This document shows positions 637-64,000 of a stretch of 64,000 nucleotides of DNA, piece by piece; the stretch's first letter is position 1, and each line of letters opens with the position of its first letter. The translations under genes were made by a program, and so were the position numbers. This DNA is from Primula veris (lineage: Eukaryota > Streptophyta > Magnoliopsida > Ericales > Primulaceae), in the NCBI GenBank assembly GCA_963682055.1, contig OY821749.1, positions 625,001-689,000 on the forward strand. Reading direction: 5' to 3'. The notes beneath the pieces are model-generated. The model was not told where the DNA came from. It did not search any database and was given only the letters and a program-made list of their open reading frames with translations.

Positions 637-3600
637 TCAACTTTCTAACTTAGGCAAACCTTCTTCAACCACAGTCCACATATCACTGTGTTTAGGAAAC
701 TTCTCCTTCACCTTCTCAAGCAACTCCTTCGCCTCGTCAACCTTACCACCATTCGCGAGCCCATTTATCAGCATCTTCATAGTCGTGAAATTAGGAAACC
801 AACCCTTCTCCATACTCTCCTTACAAATCCTCAACGCATACTCGAATTCCCCACCAGTACACATAAAGTGAACAATCGTAAAATAACAGTTACTATCCGG
901 ACAAAACCCGCTGTTCACCATCTTCTTAAACAACCCCTTAGCCTCTTCCAATCTACCTTCTTTGCAAAACCCATGTATTAAATGATCGTAAGTCACCGAA
1001 TTAGGCCTCATCCCATTTGAAATCATCCCATCAAGCAAAGCCTTAGCCTCAACCGTCTTCTTAAGTTTACACAAACTCTTGATCCGAATATTATAAATAC
1101 TGAGACCAGGCGTCATTTCGTACTTCTTCTTCATCAAATCCAAAACCTTCCCAACCTCCTCATACTTCTCCTCTTGATAAAACCCAGCAATCAAAGTCCC
1201 AAACGAGACCCCGTTCGGCTTAATCCTCTTCCTATCCATCTCAGCTAAAATTGAATAAACCGAGGACGACGAACCCGATTCACAGAAAGATTTGATAACC
1301 ACGTTATAACAGTCTAGATCAAGCTCGAGACCGTACCTTCAAAAGCAAGTTGTAAAAGTTAAATTGGGTAAAAAATGACTTATCAATATAAACAAGTTGT
1401 AAGTCAGTAAAAAGGCTAAGGTGATGCCAAATACTATACTACTATATCAAGCAAGCCTTTTTCTTATTGCTTTTTTAAGGAGCTTCTTTACCAAAAAAAG
1501 TCGATGCCAAACGCGCCCTAAATTAAGATCAAGACTACCTTTATGAAATCAAAGTCAAGACTGTACCTTTATGAAATCAAGGAAAACCGGTTTCAACAAA
1601 TCAGTTTTCTTCAACTTTATAGTATTCTCTTATATGCTAGGTTTATAAATCAGTTACCAAACACTCAAGTGCATGTTTTTATAAGCTAGACTTTTGTCAC
1701 AGCTTTTTGTAAGCGGGCTATTAGCGAACAAGCTGACGACAAACACACCCTTAATAACCACATTATAACAATCAAAACCAATCTCAATATCCTACTTTTT
1801 CGGGAAACCGAAGAAACCTTGTATCAAAAAAAGACTTAATAACCACATTATAAGAATCCAAACCAAGTTCACAACCCTACCTGTTTGGGAAAAATCAAGG
1901 AAAACCCATTTCACAAAAAGACTTAACAACCACATTATAACAATTCAAACCAACCACAAGACCGTCCCTTCTCGGGAAATCGAGGAAAACCCGTTTCACA
2001 AATGACTTAATAACCAGTTAACCACATTTCAACAATCCAAACCAAGTTCAAGACCCTACCTTTCTGGGAAATTGAGGAAACCCCGTTTCACAAAAAAAAC
2101 TATAAGTTAAAACCAGATTACGATAATCCAAACCAAGCTCAAAATCCTACCTTTTTGGTGAATCGAGGATAACCCATTTCACAAAATACTTAATTTCCAC
2201 ATTTCAACGATCCAAACCAAGTTCAAGCCCCTACCTTTTCGGGAAATCGAGAACTACAAAAAGAGTAAACCAGGGATGGAACCGAAAACTCAAAAGGGGA
2301 AGGGAGAAAAGCTAATTTTACAAATGGGTGGGCTGAAACGTTGATTTTTTAAGATTGTAATCGAAATAACATAGAATTTTACTGTTTCAATAATTTTAAT
2401 CAAAATACGTCTCCACATAGTTCTTTCCCTGGACTAAATAACCACATTTGAACAATCCAAACCAAGTTCAAGACCGTACCTTTTCAGAAAATCAAGTAAA
2501 CCCGCTTCAGCAAATCAGGTTTCTTTTCAGAAAATTGAGGTAAACCCGTTTCACAAAAATACTTAATAACCACATTATAACAATAAACAATCCAACCAAG
2601 TTCAAGAGCATGCCTTTTCGTAAAATTGAGGAAAACCCATTTCACAAAAATACTAAATAAAATAACTACATTACAACTGAAATTACCTAAACCCGAAAGC
2701 CTAGGACCTAACAATAACAATTCAGATCAAGCTCAAGACCCTAACTTTTCGGAAAATCAACGAAAACCCGCTTCACCAAATCAGGTTTCTTTTCGGAAAA
2801 TCGAGGTAAACCCGTTTCACAAAAATACTTAATAACCACATTATAACAATCCAAACCAACCTCAAGATCTTACCTTTTCGGAAAATTGACCCGTTTCACA
2901 AAAATACTAAATAACCACATTACAACTGAAAAAACCTAAACCCAAAAGCCTAGGACCTAACAATAACAACGAAAACCAAGTTCAAGACCATACCTTCCGG
3001 GAAATCGACGAAAACCCATTTCACAAGAATACTAAATAAGCACTATAACTGAAAATACCTAAACCCGAAAGTCACACCTGACAATAACAATCCAGAACAA
3101 GTCCAGAGACCCTACCTTTTTGGAAAATCGACGAAAACCCGCTTCACCAAATCCGGTTTCTTTGCCACGTGGCAAGAAAACAACAACGCCTGCAGCGTCT
3201 TCGTGCTCCGTTCGATACCCATTTCAGGAAACTCCTCAAATGTCCGTATTGCGTCCTCCGGCATGCCGGCGTGTCCGTAAAGCACAACCGAATGCGACAA
3301 AAACGCCTCGTTCTTCAAATCCGGACGATTGTTTTTCATATTTTCTAATAAGGTTTTGACAGTGGAGAGGTGTTTGGAGGAGGAGAGGTTAGAAACAGCA
3401 ACGGAGAGAGAGATGCGGTCGAGGCGGGAGGAGGAGGGGGAGAGAGAAGCTGCGGATACAATATCGAGGATCTTTTCGGGATTCTTTTCGGTTTTTAAAA
3501 GGGATAAAGCTGCTTTGGACTTTTCTTTGGTTGTTAAGAATGATGCTTTTGAGTCTGGTGAGAGGATTGAGGTGGCGGTGGAGATGGTGCGGTGGTGGGT

Positions 3601-3645
3601 GGTGATGACGTGGCAGCGGCGGAGGAGGAGAGAGGTTGATGACAT
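637..3645 (-). CDS. PPR336: Mitochondrial P-class PPR protein, PPR336/rPPR1-like (2 exons)
   Basis: Exons on the minus strand are 3645-3116 and 1336-637; the intron is 3115-1337 (GT...AG). They join in phase 2 to give 409 aa, close to the length I recall for Arabidopsis PPR336 (At1g61870). The N-terminus is Ser/Arg-rich and presequence-like, followed by ILSPDSK and [12 protein letters not shown], both typical of this orthologue group. PPR repeats follow, including [15 protein letters not shown] and [18 protein letters not shown] units. The spliced junction reads [19 protein letters not shown], which is continuous in homologues. PPR336 is known as a mitoribosome-associated RNA-binding PPR protein, so a role in mitochondrial translation is inferred. 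Most PPR genes, including the Arabidopsis orthologue as I recall, lack introns, which makes this intron odd; its make-up is described separately. If the intron were not spliced the gene would be broken, because exon 1 reads into a stop at the donor. Confidence 0.88.
1337..3115 (-). repeat. PPR intron made of degenerate tandem copies of the exon junction
   Basis: On the minus strand the intron carries about eleven diverged copies of a unit of roughly 90-130 bp. Each includes a version of CCGAAAAGGTAGGGTCTTGA followed by a version of the exon 2 start (TTGGATTGTTATAATGTGG). On the plus strand the CCTACCTTTT-like mark appears near 1791, 1875, 1962, 2055, 2146, 2229, 2475, 2608, 2730, 2871 and 2990, and the donor copy is at 3111. 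Some copies extend further into exon 1 sequence (near 2500 and 2780). Donor and acceptor fall at the homologous AG/GT of the first and last copies. Non-unit sequence near 1400-1760 resembles hAT-like MITE pieces (ends like GCCAAAC). Confidence 0.85.
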
Positions 3646-3719: not shown

Positions 3720-4210
3720 GTCTGATTCCTCCGCTTCGGTTCGGTTTTTAGTAAAATCAAAATCGAAATCGAGCATATTTTTTTATTTGTTTTTTTTTGC
3801 TTCGGTCTTTTTATTTTTTGGACCGAACCGAACCGGTCTTTTTCGGTCTACTTTCGAGTTTTTTCGGTTTTTTCGGTTTTTTGTTCTTTTTCGGTTATTT
3901 TTCGGTCTTTTTCGGTTCGGTTTTATTGAAAACCGAAACCGACCCGAAAAATTTTCAGTTGCTAAAAACCGAAACCGAGCATATTTTTTTTATCGGTTTT
4001 TTTGGTTTCGGTCTTTTTATTTTTTGGACCGGACCGAACCGAACCGGTCTTTTTCGGTCTACTTTCGGGTTTTTTTTTGTTTTTTGGTTATTTTTCGGTC
4101 TTTTTCGGTTCGGTTTTATTGAAAACCGAAACCGACCCGAAAAAATTTCGGTTTTTCAGTTTTGGTCTTTTTCGGTCCGGTTCGGTTTTTTCGGTTTTTC
4201 GTCCAGTCCT
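3720..4210. repeat. CGGTTT/AACCGA-rich dispersed repeat, two tandem units
   Basis: Low-complexity sequence of TTCGGTTTTT and AAACCGAAACCGACC blocks. It falls into two direct units about 206 bp apart (GAGCATATTT at 3771 and again at 3977). A related copy lies at 49818-50096 and ends with the same boundary (GTCCAGYCCTA). The open frames here are repeat artefacts. Confidence 0.75.
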
Positions 4211-5543: not shown

Positions 5544-5615
5544 TGAACCTGACGTGAATCGAACACGCAACCTTCTGATCTGGAGTCAGACGCGCTACCA
5601 TTGCGCCACAGATCC
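5544..5615 (-). tRNA. tRNA-Trp (anticodon CCA)
   Basis: This minus-strand gene gives a full 72-nt cloverleaf. The acceptor stem GGATCTG pairs with CAGGTTC and the discriminator is A. The A box is TGGCGCAATGG, the anticodon loop is CTCCAGA and the T arm is GTTCGAATC (B box). There is no intron. T-runs immediately follow the 3' end (RNA polymerase III terminator), and a CAA motif with a TATA-like stretch precedes it, as is common for plant tRNA genes. It is nearly identical to the conserved plant nuclear tRNA-Trp. Confidence 0.96.
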
Positions 5616-7055: not shown

Positions 7056-8020
7056 TGTTGGTGATTTTAGTATCATCAATATATTTTAGTAGTAATGTGA
7101 TTTATTATAGGCCGATGCAATAATGCGTTAAACTCGGAAACGAGTTAGGGAAGTGCGGAGTGCACGCTCGTCGAGCCAACGTATAATTGAATATGAATAA
7201 TTGAAACGGGGTGTGGGGCAGCGCCCCGAGCGAAATTTTTTCCGAACAGTTGCTTCCTTTCCGGAAAATTTTGAATAGTTGGACCTTTTGCCAACAGACA
7301 TGAGAAGTCATTTGGTTGGATAGTTGGAACCTTTTCCCAACAGACATGAGAAGTCATTTGGTTGGATAGTTGGACCCTTTCCCAACAGACATGAGAAGTC
7401 ATTTGGTTGGATAGTTGGACCCTTTCCCAACAGACATAAGAATAGTTGCTTCCTTTCCGAACGGTTGCTTCCTTTCCGGAACAGTTGCTTGCTTTCAGGA
7501 ACAGTTGCTTCCTTTCCGGAACAGTTGCTTCCTTTCCGGAACAGTTGCTTGCTTTCTTTCCGGAACAGTTGCTTCCTTTCCGGAACAGTTGCTTGCTTCC
7601 TTTCCGGAACAGTTGCTTGCTTTCAAGAACAGTTGCTTCCTTTCCGGAACAGTTGCTTCCTTTCCGGAACAGTTGCTTGCTTTCTTTCTGGAACAGTTGC
7701 TTGCTTTCTTTCCGGAACAGTTGCTTGCTTTCAGGAACAGTTGCTTCCTTTCCGGAACAGTTGCTTCCTTTCAGTTTCGGTTATTGATCTCCTTTATAAG
7801 AAGTCATTTGGCCTCGATTTTAGAAAAAGAAACATATAAGAAAATTCTCTCTATATTCCTAATCTATTCTCCTTGCCAGAAACAGATTGTTCTTCAAGAA
7901 TTATCCCCACAAAGATTTCGTGAACCCAGGCAATAATAGGGTCGAAATACTTTGTTCGGAAAGTGTACGAACACGATTCTTCGAAGTTATCCAGGATTAT
8001 CATACCCTAAATATCTAACA
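7056..8020 (+). repeat. 5' LTR with tandem 20-bp repeats
   Basis: The LTR starts TGTTGGTGAT and ends ATATCTAACA. Positions 7280-7440 contain three to four copies of a motif with AGACATGAGAAGTCATTTGG. Positions 7442-7778 hold an array of roughly 20 bp units (GGAACAGTTGCTTCCTTTCC and variants). A TATA-like TTTATAAG at 7792 suggests transcription starts just downstream, so the arrays would lie in U3 where enhancer repeats usually sit. Open frames through the array are repeat artefacts. Confidence 0.9.
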
Positions 8021-8046
8021 AACGAACAAAGTAGTTTCTGATAATC

Positions 8047-11000
8047 ATGGCTGGAGGAAGCACCGTCAAGGAGATGACTACAAATTTCGGAAAATTGGAC
8101 AAGTTTCAAGGACAAGACTTCAGGCGTTGGCAGAAGAAGATGCATTTCATGTTGACAACGTTAAAGGTGGTGCACGTCCTGTCTACACCGATTCCAGAAT
8201 TTGTAGAGGATGACACGGTTGAAAATCTAAGACGCAGATCAAAGTGGGAGAACGACGACTACATTTGCAGAGGGCACATTCTTAACGGTATGTCTGATCC
8301 CTTATTTGATATTTACCAAAATGTGGAATCTGCAAAGGAATTGTGGGATTGTCTCGAATCCAAGTACATGGCAGAGGACTCATCCAGTAAAAAGTTCCTG
8401 GTAACCGATTTCAACAATTACAAAATGGTTGAATCGAGGTCTGTCATGGAACAATTCAATGAACTCCTCCGAATCCTTGGACAATTCACACAACACGGAT
8501 TGAAGATGGATGAAACAATATCTGTCTCAAGCATCATAGACAAGTTGCCTCCTACGTGGAGGGATTTCAAACACAATCTGAAACATGGAAAAGACGAACT
8601 GTCTTTGATCCAACTTGGAAGTCACTTGCGCATAGAAGAATCTCTAAGAGCGCAGGAGGATGACAAAGGAAAGGGCAAACAAATTGCTGGACCCTCGGTT
8701 AATATGGTTGAAGGGGGTGGTAAGAACGATAACAACAAAAACAAAGGAAAGAAGCGTGCTTTCAAGAACAATAAGGGCAGTTTCGGTGCTAACAAGAAAC
8801 CGAAACTAGAATGCTGGAAGTGTGGCAAAACAGGCCACTTCAAGAGGGATTGCCGTTTCGGCAAAAAGCACGACAACGCGAATGCAAGTGGTTCAGGAAA
8901 AGGGTCTAAGGACCAATCCGAAAACCAAGGTCAGAAATCAATTCGTGATTTGAATAGTTTGATTAAACATTCGGTTTCACTAAATTCTGAAGCATTTTAT
9001 GTGCAGGATGATGCTATCGCGTGGTGGATTGATTCAGGCGCCACAACACATGTTTGCAAGGATCGTTTCTGGTTCAAGAGTTTTGTTCCAGTGGAAGATG
9101 GTTCTGTCCTCTACATGGGAGATGATCACTTCGCTCCCGTTGAAGGCAAAGGAAACGTGGTGTTAGAATTCAGTTCTGGAAAGACTATTACTTTGTTTAA
9201 TGTTTTGTATGTTCCTAAATTACGTAAGAATTTAATTTCTGGTCCTGTATTAAATAAGCTTGGATACAAGCAAGTGTGTGAATCCGATAAATATGTTCTA
9301 TCGAAGTCTGGTGTGTTTGTAGGATTTGGATATTATAATAATGGTATGTTTATGATGAATTTGAATGGAGTTCCTAATGATTCTGGTTCTGTATTTATGT
9401 CTTCTTCGAATGTTATCAACTTCTCGTTATGGCATGCTCGTCTAGGACATGTACATTATAAAAGAATGCATGAAATGTCTAAAGATGATTTAATTCCTGT
9501 TTTTAATGAAAATGTAGAAAAATGTAAAACTTGCATGTTAACAAAGATCACTAGGCAACCTTTTAAAAATATAACAAGGAAATCTGTCATTCTTGAATTA
9601 ATACATAGTGATTTATGTGATTTGCATGCTACTCCATCATTAGGGCATAAAAAATATTTTATCACTTTCATAGATGATGCATCTAGATTCTGCTATGTCT
9701 ATTTGTTGCACGCTAAGGACGAAGCCTTAGATAAATTCAAAATTTATAAAACTGAAGTTGAAGTGCAACAGAATGTGTTGATTAAAACATTGCGTACAGA
9801 TAGAGGTGGTGAATATTATGATCCTGTATTTTTCCAATCCGTAGGAATCATTCATGAGACTACGGCACCTTATACACCTCAACAAAATGGTGTGGCTGAA
9901 AGGAAAAATAGAGTTCTTAAAGAAATGGTGAATGCCATGTTATCTTACTCTGGTTTAAGTGAAGGGTTTTGGGGAGAAGCTATGTTAACGGCTTGCTATT
10001 TGTTAAATAGGGTTCCTAATAAAAGGAACAAGACTACCCCATATGAACTTTGGTATAAGAAACGACCAAACTTAACATTTTTACGTGTTTGGGGTTGTAG
10101 GGCCGTGGTTAGACTCCCGGACCCAAAAAGGAAAACTTTGGGTGAAAAGGGTATAGCTTGCATCTTTGTTGGATATGCTGAGCACTCCAAGGCCTATAGG
10201 TTTTATGTTATAGAACCTAATGACTCGATTTCTATTAACACGATTATAGAATCGAGAGATGCCATATTTGATGAGAATTGTTTCTCTTCTATACCTAGAC
10301 CAAAGGACTCTATACCTAATTCAGATGAATCTCTAAGGGATGATCATTCAATTGATGTGCCAAGTGAGACACTTGAACCCCGTAGGAGCAAAAGAGCTAG
10401 AAAATCTAGATCTTATGGATCTGATTTTCAACTATATTTAGTTGAGGGATCAAGAGATCAGATTGGTACTCAATACTATTATTGTTATAGTATAGAGGAG
10501 GATCCAAGAACGTATGATGAAGCTGTGAAATCTCGAGATTCTGTTTTTTGGAAAGAAGCAATTGATGAAGAGATTGGTTCTATCATGGAAAATAATACTT
10601 GGGTATTATCTGATTTACCACCAGGTTGCAAACCATTGAGTTGCAAATGGATCTTCAAAAAGAAGATGAAAGTCGATGGTACAATTGACAAGTTTAAAGC
10701 TAGATTAGTTATCCAAGGCTTCAGACAAAAGGAAGGGATTGATTATTTCGATACCTATGCTCCAGTTGCCCGTATCACTACTATTAGATTGTTGATTGCC
10801 TTGGCGGCTATTCATAATCTAGTGATTCATCAAATGGATGTCAAAACAGCCTTTCTGAATGGTGATTTGGAAGAAGAAGTGTATATGAAGCAACCTGAAG
10901 GATTTGTAATGCCTGGTAATGAGCATAAAGTGTGTAAGCTAGTTAAGTCGCTGTATGGGCTGAAACAAGCTCCGAAGCAGTGGCATCAAAAGTTTGATGA

Positions 11001-12042
11001 AGTTGTTTTGTCTAATGGTTTCATTCTAAACCAAGCAGACAAATGTGTATATAGCAAATTTAACACATCCGGTAAAGGAGTTTTCATTTGTCTATATGTT
11101 GATGACATGTTGATCTTTGGCACCGACCAAAATCAAGTTGATAAAACGAAGAATTTCTTGTCATCAAAGTTCTCCATGAAAGATATGGGAGAAGCGGACG
11201 TTATTCTTGGTATTAAGATTAAACGGGAGAATAAGGGGATTGTAATTACGCAATCTTATTACATTGAGAAAATACTCAAGAAGTTCAATTATGAAAGTTG
11301 TTCTCCAGTAAGTACTCCCATGGATCCGGGAGAAAAGCTTATGCCAAATACAGGTAAACCTGTGGATCAACTTGAATACTCAAGAGCTATAGGCTCTTTG
11401 ATGTATGCTATGATTAGCACTAGACCGGATATTGCTTATGCGGTTGGAAAGTTGAGCAGATTTACTAGTAATCCTAGTAGACATCATTGGCATGCGATAA
11501 CTAGGGTATTCAAGTACTTGAAGGGTACTATGAATTATGGATTGGCATATATGGGATTTCCTTTGGTGTTAGAGGGTTATTCGGATGCTAGTTGGATAAA
11601 TAATGCTGAAGACTCATCCTCTACAAGTGGATGGGTGTTCTTGCTTGGGGGAGGTGCCATCTCATGGGCTTCCAAGAAGCAAACATGTATAACTGGTTCC
11701 ACAATGGAATCTGAGTTTGTAGCATTAGCAGCTGCTGGTAAAGAAGCGGAATGGCTCAGGAACTTGGTATATGAGATTCCGATATGGCCTAAACCGATAT
11801 CACCAATTTCTATCCGTTGTGATAGTACTGCCACACTGGCTAAAGCTTATAGTCAAATATACAATGGAAAGTCTAGACATTTGGGTGTTAGACATAGTAT
11901 GATTAGGGAATTAATCATGAATGGGGTGATATCTATTGATTTTGTTCGGTCGCAACAAAACTTAGCTGACCACTTGACGAAGGGGTTAGCTAGAGACTTA
12001 GTGAATAAGTCGGTAATTGGGATGGGATTAAAGTCCATTTAA
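8047..12042 (+). CDS. Copia gag-pol polyprotein, 1331 aa, intact
   Basis: Single frame of 1331 aa. Domains in order: Gag (UBN2/retrotran_gag type), CCHC zinc knuckle [14 protein letters not shown] from residue 256, aspartic protease WIDSGA with catalytic Asp329, integrase zinc region LWHARLGH (His463 onward) and CKTC, integrase core D522, D585, E618, reverse transcriptase with YVDDM at 1017-1021, and RNase H starting YSDASW near 1178. Integrase before reverse transcriptase is the Copia order. The start ATG is 26 bp after the LTR. There are no stops or frameshifts, so the element could be autonomous. I did not assign a named lineage. Confidence 0.97.
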
Positions 12043-12602
12043 ATCTATTAGCTGTGGTATACCCAATTCCCTTCGAATACAACGTTAGAAGCAGAATTCA
12101 ATGTGGAAAGATCATAGTTAGAGATTGGAGCAATTGTGTTTATCTTCCCAAGGTATGTGCTCAGACCTGCAAGTGATGGCTAGGTTGAAGTAAATCTTCT
12201 TAATGGTTCTTTTGGAAAATTGCAAATGCAGGTGCAAGATTAAAAGGATCACCTATGTGAGCATGAAGTTTTGCCGCTTCAAGAAGCTTGGACTTGGCTT
12301 CCTATATGCTTATTAATGGATAAGGACACATGGCTTGTAAAGTGTCAAGTATGAATAGTAGAGTATTGTAAGAAACATATGTGTACTATATCTTCAGATA
12401 TTCAAATGGATTGACGGGTTCAATCGTTATGACACCTAGATTTTCGAGTATTTGGAATGTATATTTGTACTAAGATGAAAATTCAATCGTAAGACATTTT
12501 TATCTATGCATTTGTTTGATTGTTATACCTGTGTGTTATACCCTTGTATATATTATTGTATATACTGAGTAAATCAAGGATTACACTAAAATGGGGGGGA
12601 TT
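12043..12602 (+). other. Copia 3' non-coding region and polypurine tract
   Basis: This lies between the gag-pol stop and the 3' LTR. The purine tract AAAATGGGGGGGATT at 12588-12602 directly abuts the LTR and is the expected plus-strand primer site. The rest is non-coding. Confidence 0.85.
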
Positions 12603-13547
12603 TGTTGGTGATTTTAGTATCATCAATATATTTTAGTAGTAATGTGATTTATTATAGGCCGATGCAATAATGCGTTAAACTCGGAAACGAGTTAGGGAAG
12701 TGCGGAGTGCACGCTCGTCGAGCCAACGTATAATTGAATATGAATAATTGAAACGGGGTGTGGGGCAGCGCCCCGAGCGAAATTTTTTCCGAACAGTTGC
12801 TTCCTTTCCGGAAAATTTTGAATAGTTGGACCTTTTGCCAACAGACATGAGAAGTCATTTGGTTGGATAGTTGGAACCTTTTCCCAACAGACATGAGAAG
12901 TCATTTGGTTGGATAGTTGGACCCTTTCCCAACAGACATGAGAAGTCATTTGGTTGGATAGTTGGACCCTTTCCCAACAGACATAAGAATAGTTGCTTCC
13001 TTTCCGAACGGTTGCTTCCTTTCCGGAACAGTTGCTTGCTTTCAGGAACAGTTGCTTCCTTTCCGGAACAGTTGCTTCCTTTCCGGAACAGTTGCTTGCT
13101 TTCTTTCCGGAACAGTTGCTTCCTTTCCGGAACAGTTGCTTGCTTCCTTTCCGGAACAGTTGTTTGCTTTCAAGAACAGTTGCTTCCTTTCCGGAACAGT
13201 TGCTTCCTTTCCGGAACAGTTGCTTGCTTTCTTTCTGGAACAGTTGCTTGCTTTCTTTCCGGAACAGTTGCTTGCTTTCAGGAACAGTTGCTTCCTTTCA
13301 GTTTCGGTTATTGATCTCCTTTATAAGAAGTCATTTGGCCTCGATTTTAGAAAAAGAAACATATAAGAAAATTCTCTCTATATTCCTAATCTATTCTCCT
13401 TGCCAGAAACAGATTGTTCTTCAAGAATTATCCCCACAAAGATTTCGTGAACCCAGGCAATAATAGGGTCGAAATACTTTGTTCGGAAAGTGTACGAACA
13501 CGATTCTTCGAAGTTATCCAGGATTATCATACCCTAAATATCTAACA
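12603..13547 (+). repeat. 3' LTR of the Copia element
   Basis: Near-identical to the 5' LTR. It lacks one 20-bp unit late in the array and has one C-to-T change inside it. It ends AACA at 13547, followed by the TCAAG target duplicate. Confidence 0.95.
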
Positions 13548-28530: not shown

Positions 28531-31012
28531 ATTTTTTAAATAGGTAGTGGGAATTCCCACAATTTATTAAAAGAAGTGCTGAGGAGAACCTCCCAAAACA
28601 ATTCATAAGTAATTACAGATAGAATCTCTAAATAAGAGATCTAAAAGAAATAAAAGCAAACTATTACATCAAATTAAATTACCAAAACTAATTGGACTCA
28701 CTAGATTGGCGATTAAACTTTAGGGACAGGATTGAAATAGATGTAATAACACTGTATCAACACCTGTCCCCAGCACCTCTTCATTTCTCACTGTGAAACC
28801 CTAAAAAATAGCCTCTCTCTCTCCTACGCTCCATCTTCATTTTCATCTCTTTTTAAACAGTAATAAATACCATCCTCTTCATCATCATCTTCCTCTGATT
28901 CTTAAATTAGAAATACCTGTGGCTTCAGTAATTATGATCCCCTTTAAAACCTGTGGAAAATCATCCAAATTAGAAGAGATGGAAACTCCCTCCCAATTCG
29001 CAAGCAGATCAGCAGCCTTGTTCCCTTCACGCGCCACATATGTAAACTGGTAGTCTCCTTCTTTAATTTGATCTTGAATACAATTAAATAGATCTACTAA
29101 TTTCCATGGGCATTTTTGTTTACCTTTGATAATATTAATTAACTGTAACGAGTCACTTTCAATTATTAGAAGCCTTTTTGGAGAGATTTGTAAGCCATAA
29201 TATAGTGCTTTGAACTCAGAATAGAGAGCTGAATAGCTTGTGACAGCCCTAGAAAACCCCTTGATAAAATTCCCCTTTTCATCTCTAATTAGTCCACCAA
29301 TACCATTTAGAACTTCAGATTGGATAAAGCATCCATCTATATTTAGTTTCAGATAACCTGGTGGTGGATGTATCCACTTAATAAGAATGGCTTTTTTTGA
29401 TATTCATCTTACCATTGTAATTGGAGTAAGAAAAATTTTTCTCCTTATAACCAGACTGAATAATCAAGTTTTCAGCATTTCGAATAATATTACTAGAGCT
29501 CATTTTGATATTCTCAAATTTGTATGAACATCTAGATTTCCAAATAACCCAGATAATAATAGAAGGTAGAACCTGACAAATTTTCCTTTCAGAAAATGAT
29601 TTTTTCTTACTAATAGAAGACCACCAACTGTTAATTCTTCCCAACAAAGAGTTATTCTGAATAGTGATACCCCATTTACCTTCAAAGAAATTCCATACCT
29701 CTGTAGCAATTGTACCATTACTAAAAAGATGATCAAAATTTTCTTCTGAGTTTTTACAACACCCACACATAGAAGCTATATTAATACCAAATTTATGCAG
29801 GTTGCAATCCAAGGAAATAGCCTGGTTAAAAAGCTTCCACATAAAGCCAGATACTTTTAAAGGTATCATCTTATTCCATATAAATGAGCTTCTCCAGTTT
29901 ATAGGACTTACTTTCCTGACAATATTCCAAGCTGAATTTATAGTAAAATTTCCTAGAATAGTAGGTTTCCATATAGGTATTAACCCATTAGCAATTCTGG
30001 TAGTATTATTCTCAGTTAATTCTCTAGCTTGAAGCATTCTGCACCAAGTAGTAGTACCTTTTTTAATAGGAATATCTTCTGCTCTTTTCCTTCTACAATA
30101 TTTAGCTTTCATGAAATTGGTCCACAAAGTATCTTTAGTTTTGAACTTCCACCAGAGTTTCATAGCAAAAGCTTTTGAAATGTCATGAAAACTTTTAACA
30201 TTTAATCCTCCTTCTTTCACAGGAAAGCAAATTTTGCTCCACCTAACCCAATGGAACTTATTTTTTCCATCTTTATAACCCCAGAAAAAATTAGATAATA
30301 GTTGATCAATTCTTTTAATAACTTGTAGAGGTGGATTCATGGCTGCTAATGTATAAATAGGAATAGATTGAAGAACATGCCTAATCAATATCAATTTACC
30401 ACCTGAATTAAGCCAATTGCCCTTCCAATTAGCTAATTTACTTCTAACTTTTAGAATAAGTTCATGAAAAAGTATACACTTTTTATGTCCAGAATATAAC
30501 TTGCAACCAAGATAAGAGAAAGGAGGTTTCTTACTTGCAATATTAAGCTCTTTGCAGATAATACCTTTTTGTATCACATTAACACTTTTTGAGAAATAGA
30601 CTGAGCTCTTTTCTAGACTGATTTCTTGACCAGAATCTTTATTATAACATTGCAGGATATTGCTGACCTTTCTAATAGAATGAAGATCTGCTGAACTAAA
30701 AATTATCAAGTCATCAGCAAAGGCAAGGTGAGTTATTATAGGACTTCCAATAGGAGCTTTAAAAGCTGACCACCTTTTGTTACCAATCAATTTGTTTAAA
30801 TTCCTGCTTAACACTTCAGAGCAAATAATAAATAGACTAGAAGATAGTGGATCACCCTGTCTTAGACCATTCCTTGGAGTAAAAAGCTCAGTAGGACTTC
30901 CATTGACCAAAATAGAGGTTTGATTTCCAGAAATAATCCTCCAAACTAAATCAATAACCTTCTTAGAGAAACCCAATTTTCTTAAAGTAGAAATAAGGAA
31001 GTGCCATGAAAT
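28531..31012 (-). mobile_element. 5'-truncated LINE (L1-like), minus strand
   Basis: Only the 3' half of a plant L1-like element remains. It begins inside the reverse transcriptase (WHFLISTLRKLGFSKK) and ends with a short A-run at 28536-28531. The endonuclease and the N-terminal part of RT are missing, which is typical of incomplete reverse transcription. It is inserted in an LTR remnant. Confidence 0.85.
28885..31012 (-). pseudogene. LINE ORF2 remnant: RT, zf-RVT and RNase H, frameshifted
   Basis: From 31012 to about 29388 one frame encodes RT motifs (GLRQGDPLSS and FADDLIIF), then a zf-RVT-like region (WNKMIPLKVSGFMWKL, CGCCKNSEENFDHLF). At an A-run near 29388 the frame shifts by one base. 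The next frame reads IKWIHPPPGYLKLNIDGCF and then ESDSLQL and AREGNKAADLLAN, a type-I RNase H domain ending at 28885. The 5' end and the frame are both broken, so it is non-functional. Confidence 0.88.
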
Positions 31013-61980: not shown

Positions 61981-62189
61981 ATGGCGATTGTGGCGGCGAG
62001 TTTAGCTTCAATCGCCGCCGTGAAACCGACACTCCGGACCACCGCCACGTCACATCTCCGACACATCCGTACGTTAGCCTCCGCCGTTTTCTCTCTCAAG
62101 AAAAACTCTCTCTCTATATCTATATGTATGTATAGAAGAAACAGAGCATTTGCTTCTCTTTCAGAAATTACCACTCATGCCACTAATTG
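61981..62189 (+). CDS. First exon of an unidentified, probably organelle-targeted protein
   Basis: ATG at 61981 opens 69 codons plus two bases and reaches a donor AATTG/GTAATT at 62190. The peptide MAIVAASLASIAAV... is rich in Ala, Ser, Thr and Arg with almost no acidic residues, which is typical of a plastid or mitochondrial transit peptide, and ends RAFASLSEITTHATN. Without splicing the frame stops at 62193. Downstream exons lie outside the window or were not recognised, so the product cannot be named. The exon 3' end is copied several times in the intron. Confidence 0.6.
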
Positions 62190-64000
62190 GTAATTACCCA
62201 TTTTTAATTTTTTCTTATTAATCATTTTTCAATTTTTTAAATAGTGTGTTTTATGTAGGGGTTTTAGACCTTTTTAAGGGTTTAAGCTTATTTTATTTGT
62301 TGTTTTGTTACCACTCATGCCACTAATTCTCCTAATTGGTAATTACCCATTATTTATTTTTGCTTATAAACCATTTTTTTCAATTTTAAAATGGTGTGTT
62401 TTATGTAGGGGTTTTGGACCTTTTTTTTAGTTTTAAGCTTGTTTTATTTGTTGTTTAGCTTAATTAGTTGATGCATTTGCTTATAAATTATTTGCTGCTC
62501 TTTTAGAAATTACCACTCATGCCACTAATTCTACTAATTGGTAATTACCCATTTTTTATTTTTGCTTATAAAGTGTTTTTCAATTTTTTTAAATGGTATG
62601 TTTGTGTAGGGGTTTTGGACCTTTTTAAGGTTTAAGTTTATTTTATTAAATTATTTGTATGTATGCATAGAAACTGAGCATTTGCTGCTCTCTTAGAAAT
62701 TACCACTTATGCCTTTGATTCTACCATTTGGTAATTACCCATTATTTATTTATTGCTTATAAAGTGTTTTTCAATTTTAATACGGTGTGTTTGTTATGCA
62801 GGGGTTTTGGACCCTTTTAAGGATTTAAGCTTATTTTAGCCTTTTTTCTTAGCTTTTTGATAAAAAAATCCATGAGTGTTTGCTATGTCAGCTTTTAATC
62901 AAAAAAGCTTAAAAGCTCAAAAGCGGAGAAGTTAGGAGTTTGCGGATTTTTTAAGCCTTTTGATTAAATTTTTCAAAATCAAAAACTTTGTAATAGAATG
63001 TGTTTGTATATTCACAATGTACTTATAAGTTTAAATAGGTGACCAATGACTTATCAATAAAAATAAACTTATAAGTAAGTCACCTATAAGTAAAAATTAA
63101 AGTTACGGTGGTGCCAAACACTAGCTTTTCTTAAGCAAGCTTTTTTCTCATTGCTTTTTTAAGGTTTAAGCTTCTTTTATTTGTTGTTTTGCTTTGTGAG
63201 TTAATATGCAATTGTTACCACTCATGCCATTAATTCTCCAAATTGGTATTACCCATTCGTTATTTTTGCTTATAAAGCCTTTTTCGATTCAAAAACGGTA
63301 TGTTTATGTAGGAGTTTGGACCTATTAATGTTTAAGATTATTTTATTTGTTGTTTTGCTTTGTAAGTTGATATGCATATGTTTCTTAAGCTAAGCCTTTT
63401 TTGATTTATAAAACATTTTTCAATTTTAAAATGGTAATATTTGTGTAGGGGTTTTGGACCTTTTTAAGGGTTTAAGCTTTTTCTATTTGTTGTTTTGCTT
63501 TATAAGTTGATATGCAGCCTTTTTTGCTGCTTGTTTTGATTAAAAGATAGATTTTCTGATTGTGATTTTTGACTGAATTTATGTACTTTTTTTTATTTCA
63601 CCTAACTTATAAAGGGTTTGTTTGTTTGCACCATTTAAGCTCTACTTATTTGTTATTTAATATAAGTTGCCACCCTTTTGTTTACTTTGCCTAAAGCTGT
63701 GAGCTTAATTGGCATTCCTATGAAATTTTATGGTAACCAGTCCTGTATCAATTTCACCTTTATATCATTATGTAAGGGTTTACTTGTTGATTGCACCTTT
63801 TTAAGGCTTAAGCTTAGTTTATTTGTTGTTTTGCTTATGAGTTGATATGCATTTGTTTACTTGTCCCAAAGATGAGTTTTCTTTGCTTACTAATCCTGTA
63901 TAATTTCACCTAGTCTGTATTGATTTTTTTAGCTTGCACCTCTTAAGCTCAATTTATTTGCTTTTCATCTTATAAGTTGCAACCCTTTCGTTTACTTGAC
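62190..64000 (+). repeat. Intron of tandem units carrying copies of the exon 1 edge
   Basis: Units of roughly 150-200 bp repeat to the window end. Exon-edge copies ACCACTCATGCCACTAATT...TTGGTAATTACCC lie near 62308-62350, 62491-62550, 62658-62740 (the longest, with GCATTTGCTGCTCTCTTAG) and 63215-63256 (one base lost). The intronic part GGGGTTTTGGACCTTTTTAA then TTTATTTGTTGTTTTG recurs near 62257, 62408, 62609, 62799, 63308, 63447 and 63790. A possible hAT-like MITE (ends GTGTTTGCTATGTC and GGTGGTGCCAAACACTA) sits at about 62874-63123. Confidence 0.8.

Follow-up and report, generated by a model that had tools for sequence, protein, structure and literature searches.

A predicted intron in a Primula veris mS76/rPPR1-like gene, probably born when an AGGT-bearing coding segment was duplicated in tandem

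Introns from duplicated exon sequence

Published surveys were unable to trace where most gained introns had come from (PMC4974935, PMC3629103). According to a 2012 review (PMC3443670), tandem duplication was at that time the only proposed mechanism of intron gain that had been shown in vivo. The vertebrate case, ATP2A1, goes back to Hellsten et al. 2011, as cited in PMC4974935 and PMC3443670. Two fission-yeast introns, SPOG_01682 and SOCG_00815, are described as containing 24-nt tandem repeats with AGGC, and spliced ESTs are reported for these repeat introns, one of them disagreeing with the annotated intron (PMC3629103). For human genes, AGGT sites that serve as donor or acceptor are reported to be enriched in tandem repeats, and the DSS expansion model put forward in the same source has introns created by expansion of AGGT units (PMC10809524).

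Here we describe a predicted intron in a PPR gene from a 64,000-nt stretch of Primula veris DNA (the window; all positions refer to it unless stated otherwise). As described for ATP2A1, an AGGT within the duplicated coding segment would provide donor and acceptor at equivalent positions and leave the protein unchanged, but here the segment appears to have been re-duplicated, in part as blocks, to 14 recognisable copies, the 3' part of the intron is transposon-like, and the intron itself is a prediction. Like the fission-yeast introns, it holds several tandem copies of the neighbouring exon with a proto-splice site in each; unlike them, it comes from a plant, has a unit of about 85 nt with AGGT, and is known from DNA sequence alone (PMC3629103). 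Among the systems we compared, and as far as their published descriptions go, these two introns are the nearest likeness. In polyubiquitin UBC, too, AGGT recurs at the same register in the repeats, but the UBC repeats stay coding and are variably spliced, whereas the copies described here are non-coding and frame-broken, with inner sites that are candidates only (PMC10809524). Potato RdRp offers another plant intron born from tandem duplication, although the duplicate is there described as crossing an existing intron boundary and inheriting its 3' signals, whereas the template here would have lacked an intron (PMC4974935).

The mechanism is already known in the form of the tandem-duplication model; what makes this intron unusual is its copy number, the decay of its copies and its transposon-like 3' end. 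In a literature search whose matches were mostly at title level, we did not come across such an intron in a PPR336/rPPR1 gene. If our reading is right, a single locus shows the source segment, the splice-site register, later growth and the take-over of the 3' end by a transposon-like repeat, and this readable history sits in the gene for a core mitoribosome protein. The tandem-duplication model would then become testable in plants, with the prediction that unit numbers form a stepped series across sister species.

The gene and the copies inside its intron

Exon 1 (530 nt) begins with an ATG at 3645 and ends with AAAAAG in phase 2. Joined to exon 2 (Table 1), it gives a reading frame of 1230 nt that encodes 409 amino acids, and the spliced coding sequence reads AAAAAG/GTACGG at the junction (here and below, the slash marks the splice position). 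Read without splicing, translation meets a TAG stop directly after exon 1, and the predicted intron contains 33-46 stops per frame. Pfam models find PPR repeats in the 409-residue product, whose best-matching solved structure is mS76 (rPPR1; chain 9evs_j, E 2.7e-143); the alignment covers query residues 5-406 of 409 and is gap-free across the exon junction. Judged by its predicted product, the minus-strand gene is a PPR gene closest to mS76/rPPR1 (PPR336), PPR336 being the earlier name of rPPR1 (PMC9304396). An earlier sequence-only reading of the window had placed an intron on the minus strand at 3115..1337 (1779 nt, GT...AG) and had held that its removal restores a protein continuous with homologues; the coordinates proved right, and the continuity is borne out against 9evs_j, the one close relative compared. 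Just upstream of the start of the PPR gene, dense short CGGTTTTT and CGGTCTTTTT repeats form two similar blocks at 3834-4200.

Table 1. Features of the predicted gene and its intron, listed in the direction of transcription (extents in brackets are relative to the spliced junction)
Feature	Position	Strand	Basis or score
Exon 1, mS76/rPPR1 (PPR336)-like gene	3116..3645	-	translation; alignment to 9evs_j from residue 5
Predicted GT-AG intron, 1779 nt, phase 2	1337..3115	-	gene model from sequence
Copy c00, homologous to first exon 2 bases; forms donor AAAAAG/GTAGGG	3084..3115	-	score 28, below shuffle maximum
Copy c01 (-32..+17), across junction	2977..3024	-	score 51
Copy c02 (-36..+65)	2809..2903	-	score 85
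Copy c03 (-48..+31), most exon-like, 89%	2714..2792	-	score 113
Copy c04 (-36..+65)	2543..2649	-	score 74
Copy c05 (-48..+42)	2438..2526	-	score 98
hAT-like insert CAGGGA...TCCCTG, imperfect 8-nt flanks ATTTAGTC and GTTTACTC, splits array	2271..2431
Copy c06	2197..2253	-	score 39
Copy c07	2111..2187	-	score 54
Copy c08	2019..2095	-	score 69
Copy c09	1903..2003	-	score 92
Copy c10	1824..1902	-	score 57
Copy c11	1751..1816	-	score 52
Non-unit stretch between c11 and c12	1612..1749		without unit match; without second copy in window
Copy c12 (-47..+19)	1548..1611	-	score 61
Copy c13, partial, weak	1518..1545	-	score 24, below shuffle maximum; also a 28-nt tandem
Dispersed transposon-like repeat, start GGGCGCGTTTGGCATC, last ~170 nt of intron	1346..1518		ends approximate, by eye
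Exon 2	637..1336	-	start GTACGG; stop codon ends at 637

With the spliced junction (-110 to +110) as the query, masked local alignment returned 16 matches in the predicted intron, 12 of which score 39-113, every one of them running across the splice position. The highest scores among the controls were 35 (300 dinucleotide-shuffled introns) and 31 (33 further stretches of 1779 nt taken from both strands of the window), which rules out chance similarity. The other four matches are the donor copy (score 28), a partial copy (24) and two short matches at noise level (22 and 20) that do not cross the splice position. There are thus 14 recognisable copies, twelve strong and two weak (c00 and c13), and repeat finders independently recovered the same repeat families. 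The sequence-only reading had spoken of about a dozen copies making up the intron. Its count was correct, with twelve matches above every shuffled control in addition to two weaker ones; its description of the intron as made of copies holds in part, in that 58% of intron bases lie inside matches (the two noise-level ones counted in), while the last ~170 nt are a dispersed repeat and a hAT-like insert splits the array.

Measured from GTGAA to GTGAA in exon coordinates, the unit is 85 nt long (-32 to +53). In the undisturbed stretch of the array, successive units are spaced by 84, 91, 92, 87 and 85 nt (two of the five being multiples of three), and AG/GT is intact in 9 of 13 internal copies. A PPR motif spans ~105 nt; expansion of such motifs is ruled out as the origin of the array, the unit being about 85 nt long and the copies carrying stops and indels. 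The array appears to have grown both by single units and by blocks, because c03, c05 and c12 reach further into exon 1 (to about -47), an extra insert is common to three places in the array (repeat family D9), and intron positions 92-400 match intron positions 340-665 at 83%.

Is the array found anywhere else? We searched the plant's own genome (436.5 Mb in 34 contigs) using window positions 1750-3163 as a DNA query, in a search that skips very common words, and found no match to the array elsewhere: every one of the 16 candidates was scored, and the 16 non-self matches fall without exception in the hAT-like insert. Of the parts searched, only two inserts are dispersed, which rules out that the array itself is a dispersed repeat. 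Among viral and prokaryote contigs (7 and 47 pattern matches), no relative was confirmed.

Decay of the copies, splice signals and inserts

Between the copies' consensus and the exon there are 15 differences over 85 positions, of which 12 are synonymous and 12 lie at third codon positions. By contrast, only 12 of the 94 changes private to copies are synonymous, and these changes are spread 39/31/24 over the three codon positions (Fisher p 2.7e-7 for the synonymous share; changes common to related copies enter the count of 94 more than once). When each repeated change was counted once in an independent MAFFT alignment, the difference persisted (12/16 versus 10/76 synonymous, p 2e-6). Of all possible single changes, 22% (56/255) would be synonymous, and base-matched random placement of the changes gave p about 3e-4 with either the exon or the consensus as the starting sequence (this control used a hand-made consensus with 14 differences, 11 of them synonymous). 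Since the exon-array differences are mainly synonymous and the private ones are not, the aligned sequences indicate that the exon stayed under protein selection and that the copies decay freely, with the changes that separate exon and array left unpolarised in this exon-array comparison. Where exon and array differ by C versus T, the exon has C in six of seven cases; selection for a U-rich intron can nevertheless be rejected as the cause of the exon-array differences, given that the excess at third positions remains (p about 3e-4).

Exon and array have diverged at 12 of about 19 synonymous sites (the 19 being our estimate from 56/255), and the copies differ from their own consensus by 8-23%. 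Under one clock, the synonymous distance between exon and array is too large relative to the divergence of the copies among themselves. The source could have been a diverged allele or a paralogue, the exon could have undergone later conversion, or it could have changed fast at synonymous sites. In the tree, c03 falls together with the exon (support 0.895), suggesting that the exon was copied again at a later stage.

The two splice sites differ in how far they can be traced to the unit. When alignment is anchored at the donor, intron bases 1-33 match exon 2 bases 1-32 with a score of 25, compared to a maximum of 5 in a null of 5000 shuffles; anchored in this way, the donor copy is secure. The exon side of the acceptor lies at the equivalent position of the unit. 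Alignment of the last 70 nt of the intron revealed no significant similarity to the unit (p 0.11) or to the tail of exon 1 (p 0.59), and end-anchored tests of the acceptor side gave p values of 0.035 over 12 nt, 0.041 over 20 nt and 0.13 over 32 nt. The proposal that donor and acceptor occupy the same position in the repeat unit therefore stands for the donor and for the exon side of the acceptor but is not supported for the acceptor's intron side. In strength, the donor is ordinary, conforming to 7/9 positions of the donor consensus; the best inner donor-like site, AAG/GTAAGA at intron position 242 in c02, conforms to 8/9, and several other inner sites to 7/9.

Branch-like CTGAC (-71) and TTAAC (-26) motifs and a pyrimidine-rich tract precede the acceptor inside the dispersed repeat, which is likely to carry both the branch point and the pyrimidine tract of the predicted intron. 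The 42-nt AG-free stretch before the acceptor is not special, with five inner gaps measuring 46-52 nt. The dispersed repeat itself extends to roughly 10-16 nt from the acceptor (ends judged by eye) and has at least 47 other matches in the plant's own genome, all within window positions 1341-1534 (40 of 224 candidates scored). A relative lies at 63024-63177, and the region around that relative (62168-63857) contains segments of about 20-130 nt in several copies, tandem or dispersed. The second insert, which we take to be hAT-like by class, has 16 other matches in the genome, all to window positions 2268-2428; it interrupts a unit and must therefore be younger than that unit. By its appearance, the stretch that separates c11 from c12 could be a further short insert.

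How the intron may have arisen

What history would leave an intron of this kind? The best explanation of the sequence, and in our view a probable one, is that the intron was born when a coding segment with an AGGT in it was duplicated in tandem, and that it then grew through further duplication. A coding segment of about 85 bp (-32 to +53 of the present junction), holding AAAAAG/GTACGG, would have been duplicated in tandem, possibly between short imperfect GTGAA.CGGG repeats at its ends. With those ends, the 85 bp do not amount to whole codons, and without splicing the duplication would have disrupted the reading frame. Splicing between the two AG/GT sites would have restored the original message exactly, and the duplication could survive because splicing removes just the added stretch. 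Once out of the message, the new intron would have been free to change: its units would have been re-duplicated singly and in blocks and then have decayed by indels and stops, and transposon-like inserts would have entered, one of which may now supply the sequence just before the acceptor.

Much of what we observe fits birth by tandem duplication, which the sequence-only reading had also favoured and which is well supported by copies that run through the splice position, by the donor copy, by the blocks and by the lack of another match to the array in the genome search. The intron opens with a copy of the start of exon 2, the expected product of a tandem duplication that holds AG/GT. Moreover, alignments show none of the 13 internal copies to be interrupted at the splice position; the duplicated template would therefore have been without an intron at this junction, as a template with one would have given interrupted copies. 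From these sequence patterns we infer in what order things happened, where the first duplication began and ended, its rescue by splicing and the present-day use of the junction. The GTGAA.CGGG repeats are not proven as duplication ends, their score being reached by 201 of 8463 overlapping window pairs in the coding sequence and hence not exceptional, and the length of 85 nt follows from provisionally taking them as the ends. Some observations count against birth by duplication: no derivation from the unit can be recognised on the intron side of the acceptor, the predicted donor is ordinary (7/9) and a better one (8/9) lies inside the intron, and the exon-array synonymous distance is excessive under one clock.

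Imagine instead that an older intron had been present at this site and later took in flanking exon edges, cDNA or paralogue copies, which came to replace its own sequence. The final ~170 nt and other stretches that are not unit-derived would then be accounted for, and a synonymous divergence between exon and array that exceeds the divergence among the copies would fit a separate coding source. However, a template with an intron should have left interrupted copies (0/13 internal copies are), the first bases of the intron are themselves an exon 2 copy, and DNA search uncovered no second source of the array in the plant's own genome. We consider an older intron unlikely.

Very unlikely, in our view, is a broken gene copy, in which a decayed array within the gene remains unspliced and the locus is a pseudogene. 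The stop directly after exon 1 and the 33-46 stops in each intron frame speak for such a state, but both exons are open over all 409 codons, similarity to the core mitoribosome protein extends along nearly the whole length, most changes of the exon relative to the array are synonymous, as under selection, and DNA searches of the plant's own genome found no second copy of the array with short exon edges.

An origin of both the intron and its splice sites in a transposable element is scarcely credible. Although the last ~170 nt belong to a dispersed element and a hAT-like insert sits mid-array, most of the intron derives from the exon (58% of its bases in matches, the two at noise level included), the dispersed element occupies the 3' end, the hAT-like insert is younger than the unit it interrupts, and a test for one element supplying both splice sites found the donor to be a coding copy.

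Returning to birth by tandem duplication, one can go further and propose that the in-register inner AG/GT sites act as dual-specific or recursive splice sites, that the array keeps older third positions whereas the exon has undergone synonymous change since then, and that the transposon insert took over the 3' signals. Taken as a whole, we hold this extended proposal to be unlikely. If it were true, the intron would be removed stepwise or with variable inner products, and it would constitute a record of its own birth.

Elsewhere in the window, a tRNA-Trp gene (CCA anticodon) lies on the minus strand at 5544-5615. Positions 7056-13547 hold a young retrotransposon, presumably of the Ty1/copia type, with one open frame of 1335 amino acids (8035-12042) flanked by two long terminal repeats whose 965-nt match is broken by a single mismatch and a single gap; the first of these contains 45-nt and 20-nt tandem repeats. 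At 28885-31012, two adjoining open frames on the minus strand have, by eye, the look of a LINE-type reverse transcriptase and RNase H.
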